From NCBI GenBank assembly GCA_016937345.1, contig JAFGWE010000017.1, positions 1 through 64,000 of the forward strand: a stretch of DNA of 64,000 nucleotides. The letters run 5' to 3'. Source of the stretch: Methanomicrobiaceae archaeon. GTDB lineage: Archaea; Halobacteriota; Methanomicrobia; Methanomicrobiales; Methanomicrobiaceae. The notes beneath the pieces were generated by a model that saw only the letters and a list, made by a program, of their open reading frames with translations, was not told the origin of the DNA and made no database searches. Shown here one piece after another: positions 1,648 to 27,045 of the stretch; the first letter of the stretch is position 1, and every line of letters starts with the position of its first letter. The position numbers and the translations under genes are program-made.

Positions 1648-2217
1648 TCACTCGCTTTTTTCATCGCCGTCCATATTGATGACCTTGTCTGTGAATGTCA
1701 GAAGCTGTGACATGATTACAGGGTCAAGACCGCTTTCTGCTGCAAGATAAATTCCTGAAAGATTAAAAATTCTAAGTTTGTTTGTTACAAAATGAATGAA
1801 TTTTGTTATGTTTGTTGAAGGAAGGTAGATAAGCATTGCATTTACAGAATCTATGAAAATGCATGGCTTTTTACCCTCCATTTTTTTTAAAGTCTCTGAA
1901 ACAGCTATCGAAAGTGATGTAAGATCGGCCGGATTATTTAAAAATATGCATTGCGGGATGTCATCATCAGCTTTTCCCATTGCATATTTTGTAATTGCAT
2001 CAATGAATGTGACTTTCTCCAGATCGATTCCTTTTATTGAATAGAGCTCTCTGAGATATTGTGCCGGCTGATTTATTGTAATTATTATTACAGCACTGTG
2101 ATCACTCTCTTTGGTAATCTCTTTTATAATTTCAATATTGTTCTCCTTAAGTTTCTCAGGCGGTGAGAGTATAAGGGATATCTGTGCCCTGCCAGGATTA
2201 TCGTCTGAAATTATCAT
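1648..2217 (-). CDS. KaiC/RecA-like signalling protein without Walker A
   Basis: This 189-residue protein has the alternating strand-helix order of a KaiC/RecA-type core. A Walker-B-like strand ends in FIDSVNAM (D123, S124), as in KaiC, but no GxxxxGK(S/T) P-loop is present: the first strand runs into LILSPPEKLKEN instead. It therefore probably does not hydrolyse ATP in the usual way. P-loop-less KaiC relatives are known as sensory domains in methanogens (MEDS and DUF835/DUF7504-like groups); which one this belongs to cannot be settled by eye. It starts 12 bases after the PAS-GAF gene and shares blocks with the protein at 23921: FIDAIT.YA.G, NPADLTS-like, DSVNAMLI and TKFIHF...KLRI. Both copies sit directly downstream of a sensor with the same C-terminal domain, which implies a functional pair. 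Confidence 0.72.
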   Translation of the reverse strand: MIISDDNPGRAQISLILSPPEKLKENNIEIIKEITKESDHSAVIIITINQPAQYLRELYSIKGIDLEKVTFIDAITKYAMGKADDDIPQCIFLNNPADLTSLSIAVSETLKKMEGKKPCIFIDSVNAMLIYLPSTNITKFIHFVTNKLRIFNLSGIYLAAESGLDPVIMSQLLTFTDKVINMDGDEKSE

Positions 2218-2229
2218 TTTTAACCTTGC

Positions 2230-3390
2230 CTAACGTGAAATGAAATCCCTGTAAGCATCAGGAATCTCACTTCTTTTCTCAACTATTGCTATATTGAGAT
2301 CTCTGAGGTTTTTAATTATCTGATCCATGTTTTTCACCTGAATGTCAATTCTTGTCATTATACTCTCCTTTGAGATTATATTTTCAGTCAGGTCATTTTT
2401 AATCTGCTTTATATTGTCTCTGACGATTATCACAGGCTCTTTTAACCTTAATGCAGACTCGGCTATATATGCGGTAAGTGCCTCATAGCTTTCCTGCTTA
2501 TAAATTGCGCTTCCGATTATTCCTGCTGCTGCTCCCAGTGTGTCAATCTCTGCATCAGTCCATTCCCTGTCTTCTCTTGTCTCATCAAACCCTACAAACC
2601 CCCACCATCTGTCATTTAAAAATATCGGAGCAATGACTGATGATCTGACTCCGAGCATCTCCATATTCTTTTTTTCTTCTTCATCTACCGAGATTATATC
2701 TGCATATATTGTTTTTCCTTTACCGAGGCTCTTTTCCCACCTTAAAACTCCTGCCTCTTTATATGATAGCTTCTGCATTTTTGGATTGTTAATCTGGCCC
2801 TCTTTTTTGTTATATGCCCATTCAAATCTCTCATTCATCAGGATTTCTCCTGTCTTCTCATCAACAGAGTTCTCAAAGCAGTATATCCTTGCAACTCCGG
2901 ATGCCTCTCCGAGAGCCTTTAGTATGTCAGGCATAACATCCTTCCAGTCTTTTGTTCTCAAAAAAATGTTTGAGGCGTAATTTATCGCTTCTAAAATTGA
3001 ATCCCGTCGTCTGAGTGACTGTGTAATCTTCTTTTTATCGGATATGTTAAGAATAGTTATAATGGCAGAATCTGTTTTGGGATCAAAGGAGAATGTTGCT
3101 GCAACATCAATTGTTTCTTCGTTCTTTTTAACAAATCTGAATTCATGTATGGAATCGTCTGAGATTTTAGACTTTGTAAGCTCACTGAATTTTTTATTAA
3201 CTCTCTGTGAATCTTCTTTATAAATGAATGAGCTGATTTTTATTTTATTGACAAGCTCTTCCAGACCGTATCCCGAACGATCGCAGAAGGTTTTGTTTGC
3301 GGCAAGAACAATCCCTTTTGAATCAGCAACCAGAAGGCCCGTCCCTGCACGATCAAAAACCAGTTTATAATAATCTCCTGTGTTGCCCAT
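2230..3390 (-). CDS. PAS-GAF sensor with His-less DHp-like C-terminal domain
   Basis: Soluble sensor of 386 residues. A PAS domain spans ~8-120 (FCDRSGYGLEEL is the typical helix), a GAF domain ~130-300 (APIFLNDRWWGFVGFDE), and a helical C-terminal domain ~304-386. That last domain resembles the HisKA dimerisation helices around P319, but L314 occupies the position of the phosphoacceptor His, and no HATPase domain follows. It ends on the tail EIPDAYRDF shared with the proteins at 6029 and 22948. It is the first gene of a pair with the KaiC-like gene, 12 bases downstream. Signals sensed are unknown. TATA-like stretches lie at ~3412-3432. Reduced histidine-kinase-like architecture is what I see; loss of phosphotransfer is inference. 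Confidence 0.8.
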   Translation of the reverse strand: MGNTGDYYKLVFDRAGTGLLVADSKGIVLAANKTFCDRSGYGLEELVNKIKISSFIYKEDSQRVNKKFSELTKSKISDDSIHEFRFVKKNEETIDVAATFSFDPKTDSAIITILNISDKKKITQSLRRRDSILEAINYASNIFLRTKDWKDVMPDILKALGEASGVARIYCFENSVDEKTGEILMNERFEWAYNKKEGQINNPKMQKLSYKEAGVLRWEKSLGKGKTIYADIISVDEEEKKNMEMLGVRSSVIAPIFLNDRWWGFVGFDETREDREWTDAEIDTLGAAAGIIGSAIYKQESYEALTAYIAESALRLKEPVIIVRDNIKQIKNDLTENIISKESIMTRIDIQVKNMDQIIKNLRDLNIAIVEKRSEIPDAYRDFISR

Positions 3391-6028: not shown

Positions 6029-6604
6029 TTATGAATTTTTTGTCAGAAATTCCCTGTATGCATCAGGGATATCATTTTCTTTCTCAACAATATTTCTGTT
6101 AATCTCCTGTATATTGTCTATAATCTGTGAAGCGTTTTTGATCTGGATGCCAAGGACTGTCTTTAAGTCCTCATCGTCTGTTTGTTCGGATATCTCTTCC
6201 AGATTATTTTTTATTGAGGCTGCAGGGCTTTTAACACGCATTGTTGCCTCACTTATGTATGCAATCAGGGCATTGTGTTCTTTTTCAACATTATGCGATA
6301 ACTCCCCGACAACCATCGCGACAAGCACAAACATAAGACCTCTTATTAAAGAATCAGGGCTGAATCCGCCTGTGAGAATAAAAGTGTTTGAAAGAGTCAT
6401 AATTGCCAGAAAAATTCCTATAAATACAACTTTCCGTCCGTACCAGAAACCACAGATTGCTATTAAAACATAAAAAAACTGTGTATATATTATTGTTATG
6501 CCAAGATACAGGTGAACATAATATTCGAGAAATATTGAAAATAGTACAACAAATGTAAGAATAACTGCCTTAGGATTTTTTAATCTGCCCCTTAAACTTT
6601 CCAT
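6029..6604 (-). CDS. small membrane sensor with His-less DHp-like domain
   Basis: A 191-residue protein with about four hydrophobic segments in residues 12-105, joined directly to the helical domain also found at the ends of the proteins at 2230 and 22948 (residues ~112-191). M122 is at the place of the phosphoacceptor His, before P127; the tail is DIPDAYREF. The membrane part shares the TQFFY...W pattern with the sensor at 22948, so this looks like that protein without its PAS domain. There is no ATPase domain and no KaiC-like partner next to it. It may form mixed dimers with its relatives, but that is inference. Confidence 0.72.
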   Translation of the reverse strand: MESLRGRLKNPKAVILTFVVLFSIFLEYYVHLYLGITIIYTQFFYVLIAICGFWYGRKVVFIGIFLAIMTLSNTFILTGGFSPDSLIRGLMFVLVAMVVGELSHNVEKEHNALIAYISEATMRVKSPAASIKNNLEEISEQTDDEDLKTVLGIQIKNASQIIDNIQEINRNIVEKENDIPDAYREFLTKNS

Positions 6605-22947: not shown

Positions 22948-23910
22948 ATGGAGTTTGCCATCTCACAGAAATGGTCCGGTATTACAACTAAACTCATTGT
23001 GACTCTTTCACTAACATTAATAGTTGTAGCCTTAACAATCATCTCTCTTATCAATAACATTCAGGTAGTCTTCACGCAGTTTTATTACATACCGATTATT
23101 CTCACTGCATACTGGTTTAATAAAAAAGGCGTTTTATATACAATATTTCTCAGTGCATTCTATATCACCGCTGTTTACGTATTCAGTCCTCAGGATGAAC
23201 AGGTTCTGCTTGCAGCATCAGGAAGGATTGTCTTCTTCATCGGAATATCGCTGGCCAGTGCATATCTTGCCATAAAAATCAACCGGCAAAAGGAGCAGAT
23301 AACCAGATCGGAAGAAAGGCATCGGGCTATATGGGATAGTATTCAGGCAGGCATCATTCTGATTGATGCAAAAAACCACACTATAATTGCGGCAAATCCT
23401 GAAGTTCAGAAGATGACAGGTTTCTCTGAAAGCGAGATGGTCGGTCACATCTGTCATAAATTCATCTGTCCGGCAGAAGAAGGAAAATGTCCTATAGGAG
23501 ATCTCGGACTCAAAGTAGACCGGTCAGAACGCATACTTCTGTCCAGGGAAGGAGTCAGAATACCGGTTCTTAAAACTGTAACAGAGATGCGGGTAGGAAA
23601 CAATGAATTTTATGTTGAAAGCTTCATCGACATAACATCGCTTAAAGATGCGGAAAACACTCTCCTTGCATACCTTCGCGAAGCAACACTTCGTGTTCAA
23701 AACCCGGTGGAGCTGGTGCGGGACAATTTACAGGAGCTCTCAGATGCCCTTAAAGATGAGGATACAACACCTGAATATATCTCCACAGCACTTGCAATCC
23801 AGCAGAGGAACATGGATGACATAATCAGCAATCTAAAGGAGATCGAACACGCAGTTGCAGAGAAACGGACTGAGATCCCTGATGCGCTAAGGGAATATCT
23901 CAAGAGGTAA
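22948..23910 (+). CDS. membrane PAS sensor with His-less DHp-like domain
   Basis: Of 320 residues, ~12-110 are membrane-embedded (about four helices; shares TQFYY...W with the protein at 6029). A PAS domain spans ~122-235 and holds an unusual cluster H167, C169, H170, C174, C181 (GHICHKFICP...KCPI), which could bind a metal, haem or act as redox switch. The C-terminal domain (~238-320) matches those at 2230 and 6029: L248 stands where the phosphoacceptor His would be, before P253, and the tail is EIPDALREY. No ATPase domain exists. The KaiC-like gene starts 10 bases later, as in the pair at 1648-3390. Confidence 0.8.
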   Translation: MEFAISQKWSGITTKLIVTLSLTLIVVALTIISLINNIQVVFTQFYYIPIILTAYWFNKKGVLYTIFLSAFYITAVYVFSPQDEQVLLAASGRIVFFIGISLASAYLAIKINRQKEQITRSEERHRAIWDSIQAGIILIDAKNHTIIAANPEVQKMTGFSESEMVGHICHKFICPAEEGKCPIGDLGLKVDRSERILLSREGVRIPVLKTVTEMRVGNNEFYVESFIDITSLKDAENTLLAYLREATLRVQNPVELVRDNLQELSDALKDEDTTPEYISTALAIQQRNMDDIISNLKEIEHAVAEKRTEIPDALREYLKR

Positions 23911-23920
23911 TGACAGGGCT

Positions 23921-24484
23921 ATGACAAATTTCACAATTCAGGAAGATGACAAGCGAATAATCATTGCATTGTCTCCATCAAAGACCTATAGGGAGAATAT
24001 CTTCCGGATGATAAATGAGATCCAGAAAAAAAGCAGTCTGTTAATAATTATAATATGTGTTAATCAGCCCGCAACATTTCTGATGAATTTGTACAAAAAA
24101 AACGGGATTGATACAAGCCGGATCTATTTCATAGACGCGATAACACAGTACGCAACCGGCACTGCCCCAAAAAATGTTGAGAACTGCATATTTGTCTCAA
24201 AACCAAGTGACCTTACCTCAATGGGAATCGCAGTCACCAAGACATTGCATAAATTTGAAGGGGATAAATCCTTGATCTTTCTTGACTCAGTCAATGCAAT
24301 GCTAATCCATTCAAGTTCTTTGGATCTTACGAAATTTATCCATTTTATCATCAGCAAACTTCGTATAATGAATATTGCAGGAATTCTCCTTGCAATTGAG
24401 AACGGAATTGATCCGGTACTTTTCACACAGCTCACGACATTTGCCGATGATATCGTTGAATTCCCCGAAGAAGATGCAGGATGA
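23921..24484 (+). CDS. KaiC/RecA-like signalling protein without Walker A (second copy)
   Basis: Paralogue of the protein at 1648: 187 residues with the Walker-B-like LIFLDSVNAM (D122, S123) and no P-loop; the first strand continues into ALSPSKTYREN. Shared blocks are FIDAITQYATG, PSDLTS, DSVNAMLI and TKFIHF..SKLRI. No signal peptide or DNA-binding motif. It follows a sensor gene by 10 bases, making the second sensor/KaiC-like pair in the window. Most likely it receives the signal by direct contact with the sensor's helical domain; this is inference. Confidence 0.72.
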   Translation: MTNFTIQEDDKRIIIALSPSKTYRENIFRMINEIQKKSSLLIIIICVNQPATFLMNLYKKNGIDTSRIYFIDAITQYATGTAPKNVENCIFVSKPSDLTSMGIAVTKTLHKFEGDKSLIFLDSVNAMLIHSSSLDLTKFIHFIISKLRIMNIAGILLAIENGIDPVLFTQLTTFADDIVEFPEEDAG

Positions 24485-24762
24485 AAAAATCTGTAAATAT
24501 TCTGAATAAAATTTATCACTATATGATTTCAATTAACCACTATGGGGGGAAAAAAGAGGATTTTTTCAATACCTGACAGGTAAAACTTAATTTTTTTGCT
24601 TGTTCTTGGAATAATACTCATTTTATTTTCTCTGACCTCACTATAGGCTGCCTGCTTTTCCTGCCCAAAGGAAACAGGGAAATTTTATCATCTGATACCA
24701 GGAAGGATAAAGATGACGGATTGTTATATATTAAATTTGGTCAGGATTCGGGGGGTTTACGG

Positions 24763-27045
24763 ATGAATCTTAAATATAATGGAAAAATCGCAGAATATAC
24801 AGCTTCAGACAGACCCGGAAAAATTAAAGTTCTGTATATGGATACCGATCTCAAATATCTTGAGTCAGGAAAACTTCTGCTTGAGCAGAGCGGGGAATTT
24901 GAGGTTACAGTATGCGGGAATGCAGCGGATGCGACAGAATTAATCTTGAGGAAATCTTTTGATGCAATCATATCGGATTTTCAGATGCCGGGTTGTGACT
25001 GTCTTCGGATGTTTCGTGAATTTCGTGAAAAAGGCAATATTACGCCCTTTATCATCTTTACCGGAAAGGGCCGTGAGCAAGTTGTCATTGAAGCACTAAA
25101 CAGCGGTGCGGACTTTTATCTTCAGAAAGAGGGAGATAAAAAATCAGAGTTCTCCAGACTTTCTGCTCATATAAAATCTGTTATTTCAAAAAGAAGGAAT
25201 GACAGTCTGGTAAAGTCATTTTTTTATTCGCATTCTGATATGATGTTTGTCAAGGATGAAAAACTGAGATATATAATAACCAATGAGGCAATCCAGAACT
25301 TTTTCGGGCTCAAAAGAGAAGAGCTGTTCTATAAGACTGATTTCGAACTTATGGATTCATATGCTGCGGGGAAATGTTTTGAATCTGATATAAAGGCAAT
25401 TGAAACCGGAAAAAAAGTTATCTCCGAGGAGACTGTTGGTGAAAGGATCTTTGAAACAATAAAATTTCCGATGGAGATTAGTGATAATAAGACAGGGGTA
25501 GGCGGAGTTATCAGAGATATTACAGAACAAGTACGGGCAGGAGAGAGTCTTAGAAAGATAGAGGACTTAAACCAGCATATTATTGATGCCATCCCGGACA
25601 TCTTAATCCGGTGCAGTGGAGACGGAACATTAATTGACATCAGAACACCGGATGAAAGCATTCTTATTGCTCCTATATCAGAAAGCCTTGGCAGGCTGGT
25701 GTCTGATGTAATCCCCGGAGGTCTGGGTCTCTTTTTAATGGAAAAAATCCGTTCCGCACTTGATATGAAGGAGATGGAGATAGTTGAATACTCCCTTCCT
25801 CTTCCCGGAGGCCTCGCATATTATGAGGCTCGTATAATGCCTTATCTTGAAGATGAGATTATTGCACTCATCCGGGATATAACAGACCGTAGAGAGGCCG
25901 AGGAAGAGCTAAAAATGAAAAATGAAAAGCTTAAAGCCGCAGAGGAAGAGCTCAGACAGCAGCTTGATGAAAATGTTTTGGTGCAGAAGACACTCAGTAG
26001 AAATGATGCCTTCATAAGAAGTGTCCTTGAAAATATTCCTGTGGGAATTGCTGTAAATTCAGTCATCCTTGGCGTAAACTTTGAATATTTCAATCAGAAT
26101 TTCCTTAAATATTACAGGATAAGTGCTGAAGAGCTAAAAAATCCGGATTCATTCTGGGATGTAGTCTATAAGGACCCGGTTTTCAGGGAAAAGATCAAAA
26201 AAAGGGTCCTAAAAGACTCTGAAAGTGAAGATCCTAAACTGATGCACTGGGAGAATATTCCTCTCACACGTGAAGGAGAGGAGACGACATATATAAATGC
26301 AAGAAATATCCCCCTCCCGGAAAAGGGCCTTGTTATTTCGATTGTCTGGGATGTGACTGATCAGAAAAAAGCGGAAGATGAAATCAGGCGGGAAAAAGAG
26401 CTTTTCCACAGAACATTTGAGTCACTTCAGGATGCTGCTTTTGTTATTGATGCAGAATCTGAATATATCGGGGCCGTAAATGGAGCTGCGTTATCAATCT
26501 TTGGGTATAGCCGGGATGAGATTATAGGGCAAAAATCTGACATTCTGCATGTAGATAAAGACTCGCTTGAGCGTTTCCGCAGTCATATCCTCCCCTATCT
26601 TAAAATTAATAAATCAGTACCCCGTTTTGAATTCAAAATGAAGCGAAAAGACGGCACTATATTTCCAACTGAGCATTCTATCAACCCTCTGTTTGACTCA
26701 TCCGGCAATTTTGCCGGACGTGTATCAATTTTACGTGACATCTCTGAGAGTAAAGAGGCGGAAAAGCGTGAAAAAGCAGCACTGGTTCAGATAGAGGATA
26801 ATCTTGAGCAGCTTGCAACCTTAAACGATCAGATAAGAAATCCGCTTGCTGTAATTACCGGAATTGTGGATTTAAAATGCCCTGATTCGTCAGTCCCTAT
26901 AATCGAACAGGTAAAAAGAATTGATAATATAATTTCAATGCTGGATGCCGGATGGGTACGCTCTGAGAAGGTCTGGGAATTTTTAAAGACAAATTACGGG
27001 ATTGGTGCAGATGAAAGAGAGAATAAATTGGAGGAAGTGAAATGA
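24763..27045 (+). CDS. REC-PAS multi-domain sensor lacking a kinase domain
   Basis: Large soluble protein (760 residues from ATG 24763, preceded by GGGGGG; a TTG at 24721 is less likely). Order: receiver domain ~20-130 (D27, phospho-D72, T100, K124), then about four PAS-type regions to ~680 separated by a Glu/Lys-rich coiled coil near 375-410, then a short helical end. That end, LNDQIRNPLAVITG, looks like HisKA but has D689 at the His position, and no HATPase follows. The final LDAGWVRSEKVWEFL recurs, from memory, in many Methanomicrobiales PAS proteins. The response-regulator gene overlaps by 4 bases (ATGA). Confidence 0.85.
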   Translation: MNLKYNGKIAEYTASDRPGKIKVLYMDTDLKYLESGKLLLEQSGEFEVTVCGNAADATELILRKSFDAIISDFQMPGCDCLRMFREFREKGNITPFIIFTGKGREQVVIEALNSGADFYLQKEGDKKSEFSRLSAHIKSVISKRRNDSLVKSFFYSHSDMMFVKDEKLRYIITNEAIQNFFGLKREELFYKTDFELMDSYAAGKCFESDIKAIETGKKVISEETVGERIFETIKFPMEISDNKTGVGGVIRDITEQVRAGESLRKIEDLNQHIIDAIPDILIRCSGDGTLIDIRTPDESILIAPISESLGRLVSDVIPGGLGLFLMEKIRSALDMKEMEIVEYSLPLPGGLAYYEARIMPYLEDEIIALIRDITDRREAEEELKMKNEKLKAAEEELRQQLDENVLVQKTLSRNDAFIRSVLENIPVGIAVNSVILGVNFEYFNQNFLKYYRISAEELKNPDSFWDVVYKDPVFREKIKKRVLKDSESEDPKLMHWENIPLTREGEETTYINARNIPLPEKGLVISIVWDVTDQKKAEDEIRREKELFHRTFESLQDAAFVIDAESEYIGAVNGAALSIFGYSRDEIIGQKSDILHVDKDSLERFRSHILPYLKINKSVPRFEFKMKRKDGTIFPTEHSINPLFDSSGNFAGRVSILRDISESKEAEKREKAALVQIEDNLEQLATLNDQIRNPLAVITGIVDLKCPDSSVPIIEQVKRIDNIISMLDAGWVRSEKVWEFLKTNYGIGADERENKLEEVK

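Follow-up and report, generated by a model that had tools for sequence, protein, structure and literature searches.

A recurrent gene pair of tail-bearing sensors and P-loop-less KaiC-fold proteins in Methanomicrobiales as a probable phosphorylation-independent sensor-adaptor cassette

A role as signalling hubs has been proposed for the KaiC-family proteins of archaea, with the route by which signals reach them still open. Inactivated KaiC-like ATPases of archaea have been termed iKaiC, and the same work lists histidine kinase-like proteins of the type "HisKA, no HATPase" from Methanomicrobia and Archaeoglobi, which are defined by a conserved histidine residue (PMC5847659). A DUF7504 protein encoded twice in the window, i.e., the whole stretch of 64,000 nucleotides analyzed here, agrees with iKaiC in fold and loss of the P-loop and differs from it by a fixed pairing with a sensor bearing a particular C-terminal tail. 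A report on this pairing was not found in the literature searched, which left out a 2017 paper on KaiC hubs. The sensors share PAS/GAF inputs, a HisKA-like C-terminus and the lack of a detected HATPase domain with the "HisKA, no HATPase" proteins, whereas the tail has no conserved histidine and is accompanied by the DUF7504 partner. Likewise, modular inputs and a helical hairpin are common to these sensors and two-component histidine kinases, but neither a phospho-acceptor histidine nor a detectable HATPase is present.

The first pair of the window occupies positions 1648-3390 of the minus strand. Sensor 1 (2230..3390, 386 aa) is a soluble PAS-GAF-tail protein with PAS_3 and GAF_2 matches above the Pfam cut-offs, the GAF domain (PF13185, residues 147-296) being encoded at 2503..2952, while HATPase and HisKA gave no Pfam match in this protein. 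Its C-terminal end is formed by the conserved tail, a putative helical hairpin (2233..2502, minus strand, ending in EIPDAYRDFISR), which was delimited by alignments and is re-matched by the resulting profile at 128.7 bits. From the sensor stop codon TAG, an in-frame gap of 12 bases (2218..2229, minus strand) leads to the ATG of partner 1 (1648..2217, minus strand, 189 aa), a P-loop-less KaiC-fold protein assigned to DUF7504 (PF24336, 30.0 bits versus a cut-off of 27). Partner 1 carries the Walker-B-like motif FIDSVNAM (Asp 123 and Ser 124, 1834..1857, minus strand), and a Walker A motif GxxxxGK[ST] is absent from it. The second pair lies on the plus strand and consists of sensor 2 (22948..23910, 320 aa), combining membrane segments, a PAS domain (PAS_9, 39.5 bits) and a tail recognized by the profile (23641-23907), and partner 2 (23921..24484, 187 aa), again a P-loop-less KaiC-fold protein of DUF7504 (27.9 bits versus 27). 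Identity between partners 1 and 2 amounts to 51% over 169 aa, and sensors 1 and 2 resemble each other mostly in their final 82 aa (44%). All this bears out the original prediction, which had described a PAS-GAF sensor followed after 12 bases by a KaiC-like gene with the Walker-B Asp-Ser and without Walker A, and a recurrence of the pairing at 22948-24484 in the same order, with a gap of 10 bases and a different, membrane-PAS input.

A third tail, not noticed previously, is found at 6038-6286 (92.5 bits) at the C-terminus of a membrane protein of 191 aa (6029..6604, minus strand) which has no Pfam match and no DUF7504 gene in its vicinity. The architecture of this orphan is of the same type as in the paired sensors L068 and L076 of other genomes. 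Directly after the second module, 24721-27045 of the plus strand encodes a multi-domain REC-PAS protein that lacks HATPase and terminates with a degenerate stretch resembling HisKA (NDQIRNPL), and proteins similar to it occur elsewhere in the same genome. A scan for promoters and terminators gave signals no higher than those of shuffled sequences. Affiliation with an anti-phage defence system was dropped, as none of the five proteins submitted matched a PADLOC model.

In the complete assembly of this archaeon (2.1 Mb in 52 contigs), seven genes encode P-loop-less KaiC-fold proteins of DUF7504, and all seven are located directly downstream of a tail-bearing sensor, at a distance of 0-13 bases. 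Hence, the pairing is not a matter of chance, for which a rough estimate gives about 1e-17. The same helical tail of about 90 residues ends the sensor at each of these loci, the inputs being PAS-GAF, membrane-PAS, REC, REC-PAS, PAS-PAS (twice) and a longer PAS/GAF chain; the eighth tail of the genome is the orphan. Among 40 relatives, a tail is present at most 400 bases upstream of 62 out of 69 strong partner matches, and several of the remaining matches are contig fragments. Counting co-occurrence across Methanomicrobiales, named in advance as a check, strongly favoured the pairing, with both components present in 98, only the partner in 2, only the tail in 4 and neither in 128 of 232 genomes. 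A scan of named genomes revealed 70 loci, nearly all from Methanomicrobiales, with Methanoregula, Methanolinea, Methanogenium, Methanoculleus and Methanocalculus among the hosts. Overall, 151 distinct adjacent pairs from about 100 genomes were obtained, showing a median gap of 8 bases (range -4 to 104) and one of at most 20 bases in 131 pairs. Co-directional genes separated by a few bases are, however, also what dosage-matched genes look like, and sensor and DUF7504 protein might share an operon without binding each other, both addressing one target in matched amounts. The orphan tails would fit with this explanation by indicating that a sensor is possible without a neighbouring partner, and so would the lack of any natural sensor-partner fusion among the 151 pairs. 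Nevertheless, an operon of mere convenience appears rather unlikely to us, as the pair is kept together even where the gene order is reversed (read directly at locus L087, inferred from coordinates only at L140 and L149) and the two proteins show a pair-specific co-evolution.

The latter becomes evident from comparing the 151 pairs. Regarding inputs, PAS_9 is matched in 67, a receiver domain in 15 and GAF in about 6 of 85 sensors, and 28 of 90 sensors possess at least two membrane-like segments. In 82 of the 368 pairings of partners that are at least 55% identical, the inputs of the associated sensors can be aligned over less than half of their length. The clearest case of swapping is a REC-coil sensor (L003) versus sensors with several membrane segments (L068 and L076), where the partners are 67-68% and the tails 56-61% identical while the inputs are unalignable. 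With this direct example and the 151 pairs, the proposed modular system of constant tail and constant partner with exchanged inputs is supported. Moreover, the correlation between tail distances and partner distances is 0.647, as against 0.395 ± 0.032 (maximum 0.489) upon shuffling of the partners inside each genome. Tail and partner are inherited as a matched pair, whereas input domains are swapped. The distance correlation alone is no proof of contact between tail and partner, and it amounts to -0.20 when only the seven pairs of the own genome are considered.

For the tail, the AlphaFold model of tail plus partner 1 described below predicts a helical hairpin followed by a short third helix, with Glu 23, Arg 27 and Pro 31 being near-invariant (numbering of the 151-pair alignment). 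Comparison with a HisKA profile built from the own genome resulted in an E-value of 1.3e-4 and a probability of 53%, versus E-values of 0.11 and 0.0088 for reversed controls, and 6 out of 44 tails weakly match the Pfam HisKA family (PF00512, best E-value 0.0035). Judged from these alignments, the tail may be a relative of HisKA, with a resemblance that is weak, albeit above the reversed controls. Membership in MetOD2 (PF18548) was considered as well and rejected, this family not appearing among the 25 most frequently matched of the 96 families obtained for the 44 tails. The REC-tail protein L003 matches only Response_reg in Pfam. In none of the 151 tails does the aligned column hold a phospho-acceptor histidine, the position being mostly occupied by Leu or Met, and histidine does not exceed 24% in any tail column. 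HATPase is not among the best 25 of 30 families listed for the 85 sensors, leaving room for such a domain in at most one of them. A divergent phosphorelay with a cryptic kinase or phospho-acceptor hidden within the pair, as might be suspected from the histidine kinase-like sensor architecture and the receiver domains serving as inputs, is consequently hardly credible; we ruled it out on the missing histidine, the HATPase not found and the absence of Walker A from all partners. Resemblance to HisKA would also be expected if the tails were dimerization decoys, with the sensors joining genuine histidine kinases in mixed dimers or binding response regulators, gated by the partner, and the own genome offers 21 HisKA matches, 8 of them over the cut-off. 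Yet, the partner accompanies the sensors almost as regularly as the tail does and no kinase is consistently adjacent, making the decoy improbable.

DUF7504 (PF24336) is matched by all 43 partners scanned (E ≤ 0.01). For partner 1, AlphaFold gives a well-defined model of the protein alone (pLDDT 88.9, pTM 0.86), for which the best Foldseek matches, all at a probability of 1.00, are Elp456, KaiC, PH0321, PH0284 and FlaH, with fold similarities (TMq) of 0.55-0.69 to KaiC, PH0284, PH0186, PH0321 and FlaH. A search of solved structures by sequence did not return a meaningful match for either partner or tail. Partner 1 reaches only 17.0 bits with the active KaiC ATPase family (PF06745, cut-off 26.6), and membership in DUF835 was rejected at 19.5 bits versus a cut-off of 33.1. 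The RecA/KaiC core is shared with KaiC, ArlH/FlaH and PH0284 (TM-score 0.57-0.67), whereas the partner is a single small domain without Walker A and catalytic glutamate. Walker A is missing from all 151 partners, and the usual position of the catalytic Glu is taken by Asn in 139 of them, while the Walker-B Asp is found in 146 and the Ser in 139. Because of this combination of a KaiC fold, no Walker A and mostly Asn in place of the catalytic Glu, the partner is inferred to have a KaiC fold but not the equipment needed to hydrolyse ATP in the ordinary way. The earlier statement that Walker-B is kept holds for the motif and should not be taken to imply ATPase activity. The highest TM-score (0.69) is that to PH0321 (PDB 3bs4), an uncharacterized KaiC-like archaeal protein crystallized with an unknown peptide bound, for which we know of no paired sensor. 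Elp456 (Elp4/5/6), the best Foldseek match, is a hetero-hexameric ring involved in tRNA modification, the subunits of which have a P-loop-less RecA fold like the partner. With the Elong_Iki1 (Elp5) family, partner 2 scores 29.3 bits, above the cut-off of 22.5, and partner 1 20.3 bits, with 5 of 43 partners matching at E ≤ 0.01; ring formation, however, has not been shown for the partner. The presence of FlaH/ArlH among the structural neighbours and the known role of KaiC-family proteins as archaellum regulators could point to motor control through the KaiC-like ArlH. This is highly improbable, as archaellum genes adjoin none of the seven modules of the own genome. Nor does the phyletic distribution link module and archaellum, given that each of the 40 relatives encodes archaellin whether or not it has the module.

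The in-frame gap in the window allowed for folding tail and partner 1 as a single chain by reading TAG as Q (AlphaFold), using an alignment with 17 further read-through rows in addition to unpaired rows. The resulting model (pLDDT 88.2, pTM 0.78) is disordered only in the linker and the last residues. By rough estimate, domains not placed relative to each other should give a pTM of 0.55-0.60, and an inter-domain error of around 4 Å would correspond to 0.77. Modelling the complex had been named in advance as a check as well, and the linked model indeed suggests docking, which speaks against two proteins merely sharing an operon, while the contact itself is only inferred. As the interface was not seen in coordinates or PAE and covalent linking can favour docking, the model supports docking without proving it. 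Taken together with the pair-specific co-evolution, a contact between tail and partner is likely. No information on contacts could be drawn from a mean-field coupling analysis (about 95 effective sequences), in which scores between the proteins were as high as those within them.

The reading we prefer, and hold to be probable, is a sensor-adaptor cassette that works independently of phosphorylation, with an inactive KaiC subunit in place of the kinase half. It is founded on the observed pairing, conservation, loss of catalytic motifs, KaiC fold, input swapping and pair-specific co-evolution, while contact, a dimeric hairpin, conformational relay and a KaiC-type target are inferred. A signal would be received by the sensor via its interchangeable input domains and passed on through the C-terminal hairpin resembling the HisKA/DHp dimerization half, on which the DUF7504 protein would dock in the role of the kinase half. 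A change at the input might then influence the retention, exposure or oligomeric state of the adaptor, so that conformation and assembly rather than phosphate would carry the signal. As the genes downstream of the seven modules of the own genome differ, action of the adaptor in trans is probable, its common target being most plausibly a further ring of KaiC-family or RecA-like type. Against the cassette stand the weak homology to HisKA, the orphan tails, the negative correlation in the own genome and the lack of a known target. More tentatively, and rather as a possibility than as an expectation, many sensors with swapped inputs may feed a single class of inactive ring subunits and thereby signals into a mixed KaiC-family ring, constituting a phosphorylation-free sensor branch. 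The cassette would represent a concrete and repeated link of sensors to an inactive KaiC subunit and explain sensors otherwise annotated as incomplete kinases, with about 150 matched pairs being usable for testing specificity.

In a phylum sample of 394 genomes, the tail is restricted to Methanomicrobiales while partner homologues are present in 195 genomes, and a tail was not found beside the DUF7504 genes read outside the order. More distant DUF7504 homologues of small-genome archaea lack the tail as well. One family outside the order has its DUF7504 genes tightly clustered with genes for P-loop KaiC proteins and for a degenerate KaiC, and since they lie within KaiC-family clusters, descent of DUF7504 from a ring subunit is suggested. 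By inference, an inactive KaiC subunit that already existed might have been recruited in Methanomicrobiales to serve as the partner of a new sensor tail. The gene order is P-loop KaiC, DUF7504, degenerate KaiC and P-loop KaiC at L320, L321, L325, L326, L328 and L331, where genes mostly overlap by a few bases and the degenerate KaiC carries VGAGGREFA or similar, and the last three genes of the cluster are found at L322, L324, L327, L330 and L334.

Some loci deviate from the common arrangement. Within Methanomicrobiales, a second DUF7504-like gene that matches more weakly (62-68 bits) is located at L344, L345 and L346, next to a degenerate KaiC-like protein and without a tail. In a Parvarchaeota genome (L129), two membrane genes and a complete PAS histidine kinase come after a DUF7504 homologue. 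PAS-PAS tail sensors without partner are encoded at L040 and L041. A hypD-like gene adjoins both L041 and L007 of the own genome, the latter with partner, pointing to a partner lost or gained at one site. Some genomes lacking the module encode short REC proteins without partner, the tail of which has diverged and matches only weakly (L061, L062 and L063). Finally, three modules can be located within about 8-9 kb on a single contig, as seen at G128:C280 (27262-35270) and G129:C149 (9658-18541).
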